Assembly: GCA_017651625.1 (NCBI GenBank)
Contig: JAGCCP010000039.1
Coordinates: forward strand, 1 to 64,000
Length of the DNA stretch: 64,000 nt
From: Candidatus Ruminimicrobiellum bubulum
GTDB taxonomy: Bacteria; Elusimicrobiota; Endomicrobiia; Endomicrobiales; Endomicrobiaceae
Reading direction: 5' to 3'
Positions 6,084-45,945 of this stretch are shown one piece after another. The position numbers were made by a program, and so were the translations under genes. Every line of letters begins with the position of its first letter. Within the stretch, counting starts at the first letter, position 1. Below the pieces are notes generated by a model. The model saw only the letters and a list, made by a program, of their open reading frames with translations, was not told the DNA's origin and ran no database searches.

Positions 6084-8057
6084 CTAAACGATTTTTACAT
6101 CCATTATTATTAACTGAACATTATCCCTATTTAAATCTATGTTAAACAAAATATCGAACTTATCTTTATAACCGAAATCATCCGCATATTTTGCTGCCCC
6201 CCAAAAAACGGCCGGGATGCTCATACCGTCTTTACAAACTTTTAATTTTAAATGTTCTTGAGTTTGTCCTATAATAGAAACCTCTTCAAAACTAACATTT
6301 CTTAACATAAAAATAGGAACGGAATTTGATGCACCGAAAGGTTCCAAAACTGTTAAATCTTTATATGTATTTTTGTTTACATCACTTATTTTAAGTTCGC
6401 AATCTACATTTATTTTTTTTGCTACCATTTCGGTAGAAATAGAATCTTTTGCGATTTGTTTCATCCTGGTTCTAAACTCTTCTATTTTACCGATTTCTAT
6501 TGTAAGACCTGCCGCTTGATGATGTCCGCCGAACTTAATAAGCAAATCTTTTGTTTTATCGAGAGCGGAAACGATATCAAATCCATCTATTGAACGACAA
6601 GCTCCCGTTGCTTCACCTTTTTCTTTATCTTCTATGAATAGAATTACGGGTTTACCATAGAGTTTTACCATTTGCGAAGCAACTATACCCGTTACACCGT
6701 GAGCCAAGCTACCCGCAGATACAACAAGTATATTATCTTTTTCTACGTCACATTGCTGTTTTAACAAGATATTGAATTGTTTTATATTTTCATTTTGTAA
6801 TTCTTTTCTGTCATTGTTTAATTTTTTTAATTCAATAAAAAAATCGTTTGCATTGTATTTATCATCGGCAAGAATAAGTTCGGCAGCGACGGACGCTTTT
6901 CCCATTCTTCCCGCAGCATTTAAAATCGGTGCAACATTCCAAGATATTGTTTTTGCCGAAATTTGTTTTCCTTTTAAATATTCATCGAAAATATAACCGA
7001 GTCCGAATCTCTTTGAACAATCTTTATTTAATACGGATAGCCCGTAACGAACCAACATTCTGTTTTCATCAACAAGAGGCACTATATCCGCAACGGATCC
7101 CAATGCTACCAAATCAATATTATTTTCGAAAAATTCCAACATTCTGCCGTCATTTTCAAAATTTTGTTTTCTATACTGTTTTAAAATTTCATGTGCCGTT
7201 TGTTTTACATCTTCCTGTTCTTTAACTTCTATTATTTCAATATTCGTATTTTCTACATCTTTAACATAATTACAGTCATTTGTAACAATTTTTGAAAAAT
7301 CTTTTAGGTTAGGTTTGCCTGAGACAAATTCTTCTTTAACTATTATGTCATTAATAAGAATAATCAAATATATTTCTTCTTGTTTAACGGCAAGAACAGC
7401 AACTTCTTTATCGAAATATTTTCCGTATGTTTGCATTAATGCTTGTGACACTTTAAAAGAAACACCGCAACCTGCAAGTTCTTTGAACGGATAATTACAG
7501 AAATCCATTTTAGGATCAACAATACAATATGCTTTAGGTAACCCGTCTTGCGGCGGTTCATGATGATCGGTAACTATAACTTCCATTCCCAAACTGTTTG
7601 CATAATCTATTTCCGTAACGGCAGATATTCCGCAATCTACGGTTATTATAAGTTTAACACCTTCCTGTACATATTTATCCAATACGGTACAAGATAACCC
7701 GTAACCTTCATCGGAAGGAATGTACCACACTACGTTCCCGCCCAAAGTCGCAATAGTGTTATACAAAATAGTTAACGATGTTATGCCATCAACATCTCTA
7801 TCGGCATAAATAAGAATTTTTTCTTGATTTTCTATTGATTTTTTTATTCTTAGTACGGCTTTATACATGTCTCTAAAAAGGAAAGGATTAAATAAATCTT
7901 CTTTTTTAGGACTAACAAAGTTTTTTATCGCTTCAATTGTATTGAAACCTCTTGATAGTAAAACTTTTAAAGTGACTTCCGATAAATCCGTTTGTTCCTG
8001 TAAACGATATAAAATATTTTTATCTATATCCTGAAGTATCCATTTGTTCTTTTGCAA
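6084..8057 (-). CDS. recJ: Single-stranded-DNA exonuclease RecJ, with a central insertion and a TTG start
   Basis: A 657-residue DHH/DHHA1 exonuclease for 5'-3' ssDNA resection in recombination and mismatch repair. DHH-family metal motifs are YADRDVDGI (about 81), VDCGISA (about 141) and DHHEPP (about 165). The DHHA1 part carries GGHHQAAG (about 532). Between GVSFKVSQAL (about 200) and LVALGSVADIVP (about 318) lie roughly 100 Lys/Glu/Ile-rich residues that ordinary RecJ lacks. The start is TTG at 8057, supported by a strong AGGAG six bases upstream; no in-frame ATG lies nearby. It sits oddly inside a nucleoside-metabolism gene run. Confidence 0.9.
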   Translation of the reverse strand: MQKNKWILQDIDKNILYRLQEQTDLSEVTLKVLLSRGFNTIEAIKNFVSPKKEDLFNPFLFRDMYKAVLRIKKSIENQEKILIYADRDVDGITSLTILYNTIATLGGNVVWYIPSDEGYGLSCTVLDKYVQEGVKLIITVDCGISAVTEIDYANSLGMEVIVTDHHEPPQDGLPKAYCIVDPKMDFCNYPFKELAGCGVSFKVSQALMQTYGKYFDKEVAVLAVKQEEIYLIILINDIIVKEEFVSGKPNLKDFSKIVTNDCNYVKDVENTNIEIIEVKEQEDVKQTAHEILKQYRKQNFENDGRMLEFFENNIDLVALGSVADIVPLVDENRMLVRYGLSVLNKDCSKRFGLGYIFDEYLKGKQISAKTISWNVAPILNAAGRMGKASVAAELILADDKYNANDFFIELKKLNNDRKELQNENIKQFNILLKQQCDVEKDNILVVSAGSLAHGVTGIVASQMVKLYGKPVILFIEDKEKGEATGACRSIDGFDIVSALDKTKDLLIKFGGHHQAAGLTIEIGKIEEFRTRMKQIAKDSISTEMVAKKINVDCELKISDVNKNTYKDLTVLEPFGASNSVPIFMLRNVSFEEVSIIGQTQEHLKLKVCKDGMSIPAVFWGAAKYADDFGYKDKFDILFNIDLNRDNVQLIIMDVKIV

Positions 8058-43507: not shown

Positions 43508-43583
43508 GATTAAATTCCAATTAATAAAATTAACAGGTAAATATTTTACTAAATTATGAAAGATTTATATATAGATAAACCGA

Positions 43584-44513
43584 TTAACTTTTTTGAGGAA
43601 GATTCAACAACTCTCCGAACTTATAATCCCATTCGAAAGGATTAAAAGGAACTGTTCCGCTAAACGGTGTAAAAGTTAATTCACCTACATAAACATTATT
43701 ACTACTGTCTTCATACAAATCAACTCTGACAAAAGGGAACGGTTGTGCCAATTTTTCCGCAATACTAATCATTTCTTCATAATTATTCACTTCTAACTTT
43801 ATATCTTTATTGATAACCGCATTTGCATATGTAAAAGGTTGTAAATTTAAATTTCTGTCATAAAAATTAAAATTTCTTTTTCTGTCACGTATTGCGGTTG
43901 TCATCAAATATTTACATTTACCGTTAAAACAAAAAAATTTATAATTCTGCACAAATTTTCCGTTTTTTCCCAAAAGAAATTTTTCACAAATAATCTTCGG
44001 TTTTATATCCTTGTATTGCCACTCAAAATGTGCATAATAGAAATTCATTTTCGGTTTAACCCATTTTGTAAGTTTTGTTATTGCATCATTTACATCAAAT
44101 GTCGACTTATCTATACATGCAACATTTTGTCTGCATCCCCAATTTGTTTTTATTATAAATTGGTTCGGTAACTTATCAAACTCTATTTCATTGGGTTTAT
44201 TATAAACACCTAAACACGGAACTAAATATTTTTCACCTGCAATATCTTTTATATATTCTCTTGCAGCAACCTTATCTGTACATTTTGTCATCAACGGATC
44301 ACGATAATAAAATTTCAACCATTGAATTTTTTCGTTAAAAGTTTTTGGATTGTCTAAATTTAATTTGCAACCTAATTCATGTTTGAATTGAACTTCCAAA
44401 GCATAGCGAACATCTTCTTCGGTTAATTTTTTAAATTTTTCGGAATCAATTATTTTATACTTAAAATTTAACTTATATTTTAAGTTTTCCCATTTTTTTT
44501 TAATTATATTCAT
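43584..44513 (-). CDS. TupA-like ATP-grasp protein coupled to a radical SAM peptide maturase
   Basis: About 309 residues. NPKTFNEKIQWLKFYYRDPLMTKCTDKVAAREYI and FIIKTNWG match the start of the ATPgrasp_TupA family, named for TupA of teichuronopeptide synthesis. VRVDLYEDSSNNVYVGELTFTPFSGT supplies the ATP-grasp metal-binding end (D and E). ATP-grasp enzymes join a carboxylate to an amine or thiol through an acyl phosphate. The maturase stop and this ATG form TAATG, so translation is coupled. A role in modifying the Cys-rich peptide is inference; a glycan-linked role is the alternative. Confidence 0.75.
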   Translation of the reverse strand: MNIIKKKWENLKYKLNFKYKIIDSEKFKKLTEEDVRYALEVQFKHELGCKLNLDNPKTFNEKIQWLKFYYRDPLMTKCTDKVAAREYIKDIAGEKYLVPCLGVYNKPNEIEFDKLPNQFIIKTNWGCRQNVACIDKSTFDVNDAITKLTKWVKPKMNFYYAHFEWQYKDIKPKIICEKFLLGKNGKFVQNYKFFCFNGKCKYLMTTAIRDRKRNFNFYDRNLNLQPFTYANAVINKDIKLEVNNYEEMISIAEKLAQPFPFVRVDLYEDSSNNVYVGELTFTPFSGTVPFNPFEWDYKFGELLNLPQKS

Positions 44514-45535
44514 TAGATTTCTTTCCAACATTGCGGATCGGCCGCATAAAAATTATGAGTTTTACCGTGAGCCACGGCAGGACATCCCCTGCAAAAGCCT
44601 AACAATTCACATTTGGAACATTTTTCAAATTTGTCGTAATCTCTGTATTGTTCCATTTCGTTTAACCAAACATCCGATATTTTGTTTTCAAACACGTTTC
44701 CTACTTTACCGTCAAATCTTCTGCAAGCAAGCAAATCTCCGTTCGAACAAATAGTCATATGAGCATTACCGCAATTACAACCGTCATATATAATTCCTTT
44801 TTCTGCCCACTCGGGAATTTTAAAAAGGCCTTTTTCATAAAGATATAACGTCCATAAATGGTCTTTATATGCAAAATAAGTATTTCTGCCTTTGTATTGT
44901 TGATACTTGTTATAACATTTATCCAAAAGTTCTTTATATTCCAACGGTTTTATGTTTGTATCTTTTTGTAAACTCGTAGGACAATATCTTGCAAAACCGA
45001 AAATGTCCACTTCATGTTCCACAACGGTATCTATAATGTCCGGAACTTCTTTAACATTTTTATCTGAAACGGTTGTCATAATAACAGACTCTATTCCCGC
45101 ATCTTTTATGCATTTTATTTTTTCTAAAGTAATATCGAAAGAGCCGGGCTTTCTGAACCAATCGTGAGTTTGTTTCATACCGTCTATAGACATTTGATAA
45201 CTTTCACAGCCGTAACTTTTCAACTTTTTACAAACTTTGGTATCTATATGAAAAGGATTACCCAAAATTGAAAATTCTATATTGTGTTTTTTCAATATTT
45301 CAAGCAAGTTCCAAAAATCTTTGTTAAGAATCGGGTCTCCGCCGGTCAATACAAAACGGGGTTGTCTATTGAATTTCGAACAAAATTCAATACAGTTATC
45401 AACAACTTTTTTCATTTGTTCCAACTGCATCGAAGCTATAGGTTTTGTTACATTTTCCGAGAATATATAACAATGTTTACATCTTTGATCACATTCGTCT
45501 GTTATGTGCCACTGAAAAGAAAAAATTTGTTTCAT
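44513..45535 (-). CDS. Radical SAM/SPASM peptide maturase
   Basis: 340 residues. The N-terminal SAM cluster motif is C15-x3-C19-x2-C22 (CDQRCKHCY), followed by LTGGDPILN and the SIDG segment. The C-terminal SPASM region binds auxiliary Fe-S clusters: GCNCGNAHMTICSNGDLLACRRF, KCSKCELLGFCRGC and a final PQCW. This architecture is shared by peptide-modifying enzymes that make thioether or carbon-carbon crosslinks. It lies 72 bp below the Cys-rich peptide gene and is coupled to the ATP-grasp gene. A GGA seven bases upstream of the ATG is a modest ribosome binding site. Confidence 0.88.
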   Translation of the reverse strand: MKQIFSFQWHITDECDQRCKHCYIFSENVTKPIASMQLEQMKKVVDNCIEFCSKFNRQPRFVLTGGDPILNKDFWNLLEILKKHNIEFSILGNPFHIDTKVCKKLKSYGCESYQMSIDGMKQTHDWFRKPGSFDITLEKIKCIKDAGIESVIMTTVSDKNVKEVPDIIDTVVEHEVDIFGFARYCPTSLQKDTNIKPLEYKELLDKCYNKYQQYKGRNTYFAYKDHLWTLYLYEKGLFKIPEWAEKGIIYDGCNCGNAHMTICSNGDLLACRRFDGKVGNVFENKISDVWLNEMEQYRDYDKFEKCSKCELLGFCRGCPAVAHGKTHNFYAADPQCWKEI

Positions 45536-45554
45536 ATATTTTTCCTATGCATAA

Positions 45555-45592
45555 AAAAAGACCTCCTTCTTCATAAAAAAAGAGATCTTTTT
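45555..45592 (-). terminator. Attenuator-like hairpin between peptide gene and maturase gene
   Basis: AAAAAGACCTC (45555-45565) pairs with GAGATCTTTTT (45582-45592) with one mismatch. On the minus-strand transcript the second arm ends in a U-run. Partial termination here would give more peptide mRNA than enzyme mRNA. Confidence 0.65.
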
Positions 45593-45607
45593 CTATTATA
45601 TTTACAA

Positions 45608-45853
45608 TTATTTGCAAGGTGAACAACCTGTTTTTTTACGTTTTTGCGCAGGCATACAAGATGAACAACCGTAACCGGTTGTCTTCTTTATATTAATATT
45701 ATAAGAGCCGCAGCCTGATGCCTTTGCAATAGAACCGCAGCCTGTCGGTCTCTTAGCAACTTGGCAAGAACTGCAACCGCAACCGGTTGTTTTCTTTAAA
45801 CTTATTTTTTTCTGTATTCCTTCATTCCAATCATATAAATTACTTAAAGACAT
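45608..45853 (-). CDS. Cys-rich peptide, candidate radical SAM-modified precursor
   Basis: 81 residues from the ATG at 45853. That start has GGAGG seven bases upstream; the in-frame ATG at 45859 lies one base from the GGAGG and is too close. The first 18 residues (MSLSNLYDWNEGIQKKIS) lack Cys and would be a leader. The rest holds nine Cys: a unit KKTTGCGCSSC, then TGCGS, GCGS, a second unit KKTTGYGCSSC, and the end KTGCSPCK. There is no Gly-Gly cleavage site and no transporter nearby. It has its own promoter. A metal-binding peptide is the alternative. Confidence 0.75.
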   Translation of the reverse strand: MSLSNLYDWNEGIQKKISLKKTTGCGCSSCQVAKRPTGCGSIAKASGCGSYNINIKKTTGYGCSSCMPAQKRKKTGCSPCK

Positions 45854-45897
45854 TTCCATACCTCCGAATTAGTATTGAAACAAACCGGTACTATATT

Positions 45898-45926
45898 ATT
45901 TTACAACACTTTCCGTTTTTTTTCAA
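45898..45926 (-). promoter_or_regulatory. Promoter of the Cys-rich peptide gene
   Basis: On the minus strand -35 TTGAAA, exactly 17 bp, then -10 TAAAAT. Transcription would start near 45891, leaving a leader of about 38 nt with GGAGG in place. Confidence 0.65.
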
Positions 45927-45945
45927 TCGTTTTTTGATTGTCTGC

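Follow-up and report, generated by a model that had tools for sequence, protein, structure and literature searches.

Several systems that resemble the locus described here have been catalogued or characterized. The ACGX system is represented in NCBIfam by a radical SAM maturase family (TIGR04340, rSAM_ACGX) and a precursor family (TIGR04341), and its typical precursor consists of the leader MALSNLFGWN followed by a core of the form (ACGxxx)n. No paper was found in the literature searched on ACGX, TIGR04340 or TIGR04341 with radical SAM, and none describing the product or the enzyme chemistry. In grasp-with-spasm systems, one ATP-grasp enzyme and one SPASM enzyme are encoded in a peptide locus. 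TupA of Bacillus halodurans is involved in teichuronopeptide synthesis. The enzyme SbtM (TIGR04082) is a thio(seleno)oxazole maturase that acts on Cys or Sec and was shown to convert Cys to a thiooxazole (PMC11002830), whereas the PapB/freyrasin ranthipeptides (NF047865) contain thioethers that are likewise formed by a SPASM maturase. Cys-Gly repeats, such as the EGKCG repeats of the copper-related captophorins and bufferins, are the substrate of 5-thiooxazole-forming MNIO enzymes (PMC12668002).

A locus of three genes was identified between proS and lpd in the genome of Candidatus Ruminimicrobiellum bubulum (G000), whose genus is an uncultured member of the Elusimicrobiota from the rumen, in the stretch of 64,000 nucleotides referred to here as the window. 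The genes lie on the minus strand at 43584-45853 and encode a Cys-rich peptide, a SPASM radical SAM enzyme and a TupA-like ATP-grasp protein, respectively. All three were found as an earlier note on this DNA had described them, including the 81 residues and nine Cys of the peptide. The locus contains the following features.

43508..45945, no strand: insertion between proS and lpd, full extent (empty site in three congeners)
45898..45926, minus strand: candidate promoter for the peptide gene, sigma-70-type, TTGAAA-17-TAAAAT (consensus match only)
45608..45853, minus strand: precursor peptide of 81 aa, divergent ACGX-type, with nine Cys and the leader MSLSNLYDWN (reading frame, leader and pairwise match)
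45551..45596, minus strand: strong hairpin with a U run that separates the peptide gene from the maturase gene, resembling an attenuator or terminator (folding energy)
44513..45535, minus strand: ACGX maturase (TIGR04340) of the radical SAM/SPASM type, 340 aa (profile match)
43584..44531, minus strand: TupA-like ATP-grasp protein (PF14305), 315 aa (profile match)

The start of the peptide gene was set at ATG 45853 because GGAGG lies 7 nt ahead of this codon, and just 1 nt ahead of ATG 45859, and because the leader MSLxNLYxWN is conserved; the same start is kept in relatives. The TAATG joint between the maturase and ATP-grasp genes is present at 44513, where the maturase stop overlaps an internal ATG of the ATP-grasp gene. 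Translation from this ATG would give 309 aa, and a start at the upstream in-frame ATG 44531 is possible and gives 315 aa. For the peptide's own promoter, a 10/12 match (TTGAAA-17-TAAAAT, 45926-45898) was located upstream of the gene; sigma-70-type matches occur in mild excess in the region (21 sites vs 13.3 expected in shuffles), and the promoter is plausible but not significant on this match alone. The hairpin between the peptide and maturase genes (-21.4 kcal/mol, z -6.2) is long and A/U-rich, and a similar hairpin (z -3.3) lies between the corresponding genes of a second species (G010). Such a hairpin, which the earlier note does not mention, would favour a surplus of peptide transcript. 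No Rfam RNAs were found in the locus region. The immediate neighbours are proS and lpd. No transporter or protease is adjacent, again as the earlier note had it.

The maturase is encoded by one copy only in this genome and matches TIGR04340 with 571.3 bits, well above the cut-off of 400. Its second-best family is SbtM (183.5 bits, 6.8e-54), under the cut-off of 350, and the PapB family (NF047865) is matched with 79.8 bits (2e-22), far under the cut-off of 340. The radical SAM motif CX3CX2C comprises C15, C19 and C22, and the SPASM-type Cys are C253, C255, C271, C306, C309, C315, C318 and C336. All of these are invariant in 75/75 relatives, in agreement with the full set of cluster motifs first read from the gene. 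The predicted structure (pLDDT 80) begins at the barrel, an RRE domain is absent, and the nearest Foldseek matches of the model are the RiPP maturases SkfB and SuiB, with anSME also matched. As in other ACGX loci, a small Cys-rich peptide with a leader of the form MxLxNLxxWN is encoded directly upstream. Peptide and maturase thus belong to ACGX, which NCBIfam already lists, and are not the new peptide-modification pathway that had been proposed. The new elements are those of a variant with a joint insertion, a recruited ATP-grasp gene, a diverged peptide and an unlinked canonical precursor. The ATP-grasp gene had rightly been singled out as an unusual third gene beside a RiPP-type peptide and a SPASM maturase.

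Relatives of the maturase were identified by a genome scan at 80 close loci (61-88% identity), mostly in Clostridia, with two in Elusimicrobia of the Ruminimicrobiellum type and one in a Candidatus Brocadia genome. The ACGX family of RiPPs is widespread in gut and rumen. The maturase is accompanied by an adjacent precursor, or by ACG-repeat fragments of one, at 76/80 loci, so that a maturase occurring widely without the peptide, which would have spoken against the pairing, is not what was seen. An intact adjacent Cys-rich precursor reading frame is present at 72/80 loci (71 with ACG repeats and the G010 precursor), and the other eight comprise four with ACG-repeat fragments, two at a contig end, one with a short remnant and one without a precursor. 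Among 11 genomes of the genus, the maturase was detected in three, and precursors were detected in exactly those three and in 0/8 others, which indicates that the pairing of peptide and maturase is more than chance. The three maturases of the genus form one clade (100/99) that falls within the Clostridial sequences and groups with Lachnospiraceae (98/94), and the window maturase is 61-68% identical to clostridial maturases. The nested position suggests that the maturase was gained horizontally by the Ruminimicrobiellum genus.

The precursors of the relatives have a highly regular core in which Gly follows 396/399 Cys and Ala precedes 374/399 Cys. In these Clostridial precursors, the residue at position +4 of Cys is Asp in 205/399 cases and Cys in 170/399 (together 375/399). 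The spacing fits the CX3D motif of ranthipeptides, and together with the 80 bits to the PapB family it could mean that the ACGX maturase links the Cys sulfur to a carbon of the residue at +4, like PapB at CX3D, and thereby makes a row of small thioether rings. This chemistry is considered rather unlikely. CX3D motifs are common in clostridial precursors, but none occurs in the four distinct precursors examined from the Ruminimicrobiellum genus, which lack Asp at +4 although the window maturase is 61-68% identical to its clostridial relatives. SbtM is, moreover, a far closer family than PapB, and the +4 spacing may merely mirror the repeat unit. A Cys-derived 5-thiooxazole is the leading candidate for the chemistry, with the CX3D thioether as its rival, since SbtM is the nearest characterized enzyme, Cys-Gly repeats are a substrate of MNIO enzymes, and the precursors of the genus lack Asp acceptors. 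SbtM-type chemistry is a prediction for ACGX, and the window system contains no Sec. The product proposed here for ACGX is the same as that of captophorins and bufferins, which are likewise repeated Cys-Gly peptides (PMC12668002, PMC12452194). The enzymes of the latter are MNIO enzymes whereas that of ACGX is a radical SAM enzyme, bufferins and oxazolins carry Sec signal peptides, and the copper role belongs to captophorins and bufferins, ACGX being only a putative metal buffer.

In the proposed mechanism, the TIGR04340 SPASM enzyme would recognise the leader MxLxNLYxWN and oxidise the core Cys. The likely product would be an SbtM-type Cys-derived heterocycle, a 5-thiooxazole formed with the loss of 4 H per Cys, which may serve in the cytoplasm as a sulfur-rich buffer for redox state, electrophiles or metals. 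Clustering of the neighbours at the 80 ACGX loci gave an HxlR regulator similar to redox factors at 49 loci, SIR2-like genes at 45, PPOX-ferredoxin at 38, macrodomain ADP-ribose hydrolase at 33 and PIG3-type quinone reductase at 25. Pairs of SirTM and macrodomain proteins function in oxidative stress (PMC11490716), the ACGX neighbours being known here only as SIR2-like. This redox-type gene set at clostridial loci suggests that the ACGX RiPP family has a redox or electrophile stress role; genes of this type are not located beside the window locus itself. The gene context thereby offers a role that can be tested, as a Cys-derived buffer inside the cells of anaerobes, and such a buffer would parallel the copper-binding 5-thiooxazole peptides produced by iron enzymes.

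The window peptide differs from the ACGX precursors found elsewhere. Gly follows only 3/9 of its Cys, it contains no ACG motif, and a search with the TIGR04341 profile gave no match at E<=1. The precursor at the corresponding locus of G010 reaches 22.2 bits against the same profile (cut-off 28). The window peptide has lost most of its Cys-Gly motifs, and with few of these and no profile match the maturase may accept it poorly or act on it with other chemistry. An origin of the peptide unrelated to ACGX was also considered and is ruled out by its leader (MSLSNLYDWN, compared with MALSNLFGWN in Clostridia) and by a pairwise match to a canonical precursor that this genome also encodes (E 7.7e-5).

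This canonical precursor, with PCGCGSKKN repeats, is encoded on another contig (C25:16811-16984; L103:1501-1674) and has no adjacent maturase. It scores 28.5 bits against TIGR04341 (cut-off 28), and Gly follows 8/8 of its Cys. It is conserved in G010 (contig C48), likewise at a MarR site and without a maturase. The two copies differ by 11 synonymous and two nonsynonymous codon changes (dN 0.015, dS 0.39), and by this ratio the precursor is under purifying selection and kept as a functional gene. The neighbours of the C25 precursor are MarR, quinone reductase and DUF1848 genes. The MarR gene (L103:1743-2171) matches TIGR04472, a 'radical SAM mobile pair' regulator, weakly, with 66 bits against a cut-off of 240. 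In another genome of the genus (G003), a precursor and a maturase share one site, next to genes for MarR, PPOX-ferredoxin and quinone reductase. Since the C25 precursor is kept functional and only one maturase is encoded in the genome, the window maturase probably modifies this precursor in trans. Two substrates would then most likely be served by it, the nine-Cys peptide of its own locus in cis and the PCGCGSKKN-repeat precursor in trans.

The same observations could be explained if the window peptide were a decaying copy of the precursor and the insert were kept only for a maturase serving the C25 precursor. The weak conservation of motifs, the length difference between the two species and the purifying selection on the C25/C48 precursor are consistent with such decay. 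Against it, the leader is conserved in the locus peptides of both the window and G010, and both are intact reading frames with a good ribosome-binding site and a downstream hairpin; decay is regarded as improbable. The explanation adopted for the locus as a whole, with somewhat more confidence than doubt, is a divergent ACGX-type RiPP locus with SbtM-type Cys chemistry, precursors in cis and in trans, and a joint insertion of three genes.

The insertion was delimited by comparison with congeners. In G002, G003 and G007, lpd begins 3 bp after proS and the site is empty. The block of peptide, maturase and ATP-grasp genes is present at proS-lpd in both G000 and G010, which also have about 60 nt of the junction before lpd in common. 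By this comparison, the three genes are one insertion that entered jointly in the common ancestor of the two species. In G010 (contig C58; L129:6860-7100 and 7088-7954), a Caps_synth capsule-type glycosyltransferase gene follows the ATP-grasp gene, and behind it lies a 142-bp remnant with 80% identity to the window sequence where the ATP-grasp gene ends (3') and meets the lpd junction. Given this remnant, the three genes were probably the original insert and Caps_synth a later addition; its membership of the ancestral insert was considered and is unlikely for the same reason.

The ATP-grasp protein matches PF14305 with 169 bits (gathering cut-off 25) and has the conserved RVD and GELT residues of TupA/PF14305 proteins. 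Its gene lies behind a RiPP maturase with no glycan gene adjacent, and thus outside the usual glycan context of these proteins. The combination also differs from grasp-with-spasm systems, in which the ATP-grasp and SPASM enzymes belong to families other than PF14305 and TIGR04340. No solved structure matching the protein by sequence was found, and the predicted structure, from two sequences, is poor (pLDDT 39). Its nearest relatives are the G010 copy (71% identity) and paralogs of the genus (54-59%). In G003, G007 and G010, these paralogs lie inside or close to clusters that also contain genes for a glycosyltransferase, a PMT-type mannosyltransferase-like protein and an FAD amine oxidase. The ATP-grasp genes linked to the radical SAM gene (G000 and G010) form a clade of their own (100/100) and are under purifying selection (dN/dS 0.26, vs 0.09 for the maturase).

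Co-occurrence of the three genes in related genomes extends to peptide and maturase but not to the ATP-grasp gene, for which tblastn gave no match in the 78 non-Elusimicrobial ACGX loci. PF14305 is absent from 41/50 other ACGX genomes searched. A general role of the ATP-grasp as an ACGX component is ruled out by its absence from these loci and genomes, and on the same comparison the gene is a lineage-specific recruit, drawn from the genus paralogs in or near glycan clusters. The window is therefore a case in which precursor and maturase are split and a ligase gene has been recruited, relevant to trans maturation and enzyme gain in RiPP pathways. The ATP-grasp enzyme would probably join a carboxylate to an amine or hydroxyl, and the acceptor may be either the peptide after its modification or a glycan of the cell surface.

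That it is a glycan enzyme, carried in or recombined beside the RiPP pair and not acting on the peptide, falls just short of an even chance. The position of its closest paralogs, within or close to gene clusters for glycans or the envelope, is in keeping with this, as are its absence from the other ACGX loci examined and from most of the genomes, and the Caps_synth gene and ATP-grasp remnant of G010 indicate that sugar genes recombine at the site. That such genes cluster with glycan genes only, which would have spoken against the pathway, is half true: it agrees with these paralogs, with Caps_synth and with the lack of the ATP-grasp gene at ACGX loci elsewhere, but not with the window, where the sole PF14305 gene of the genome has no glycan neighbour and shares its insertion with the RiPP pair. 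The overlap with the maturase gene in both species, as part of the ancestral insert, and the separate clade under purifying selection likewise argue against a purely glycan function.

Action on the peptide is possible. In a two-enzyme RiPP pathway, the ATP-grasp would attach an amino acid to the peptide already processed by the maturase, or form an ester or amide there, and this is a real prospect, if on balance doubted. It accords with the joint insertion, the gene overlap and the separate ATP-grasp clade, and the two genomes that carry the ATP-grasp gene are precisely those in which the core has moved away from the ACGX repeat. No RiPP role was found, however, in the literature searched on TupA ATP-grasp proteins (PF14305) with peptides, and the core is unlike in the two species (81 aa and nine Cys in the window, 68 aa and five Cys in G010), with no evident ligation site. 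The link of the ATP-grasp to the pathway also comes from one insertion in two genomes. A fuller two-step pathway is offered only tentatively and seems doubtful as a whole: the maturase, followed by the recruited ATP-grasp, would act on the diversified Cys-rich peptide, possibly by amino acid attachment or by joining to a surface polymer, and the maturase would also serve the unlinked precursor in trans.

Elsewhere in the genus, three TupA-like ATP-grasp genes were identified within about 7 kb on contig C4 of G010 (L119), with a glycosyltransferase gene beside them. BrkB/YihY-like and FAD amine-oxidase-like genes lie between these ATP-grasp copies, and the arrangement is similar in G003 and G007.
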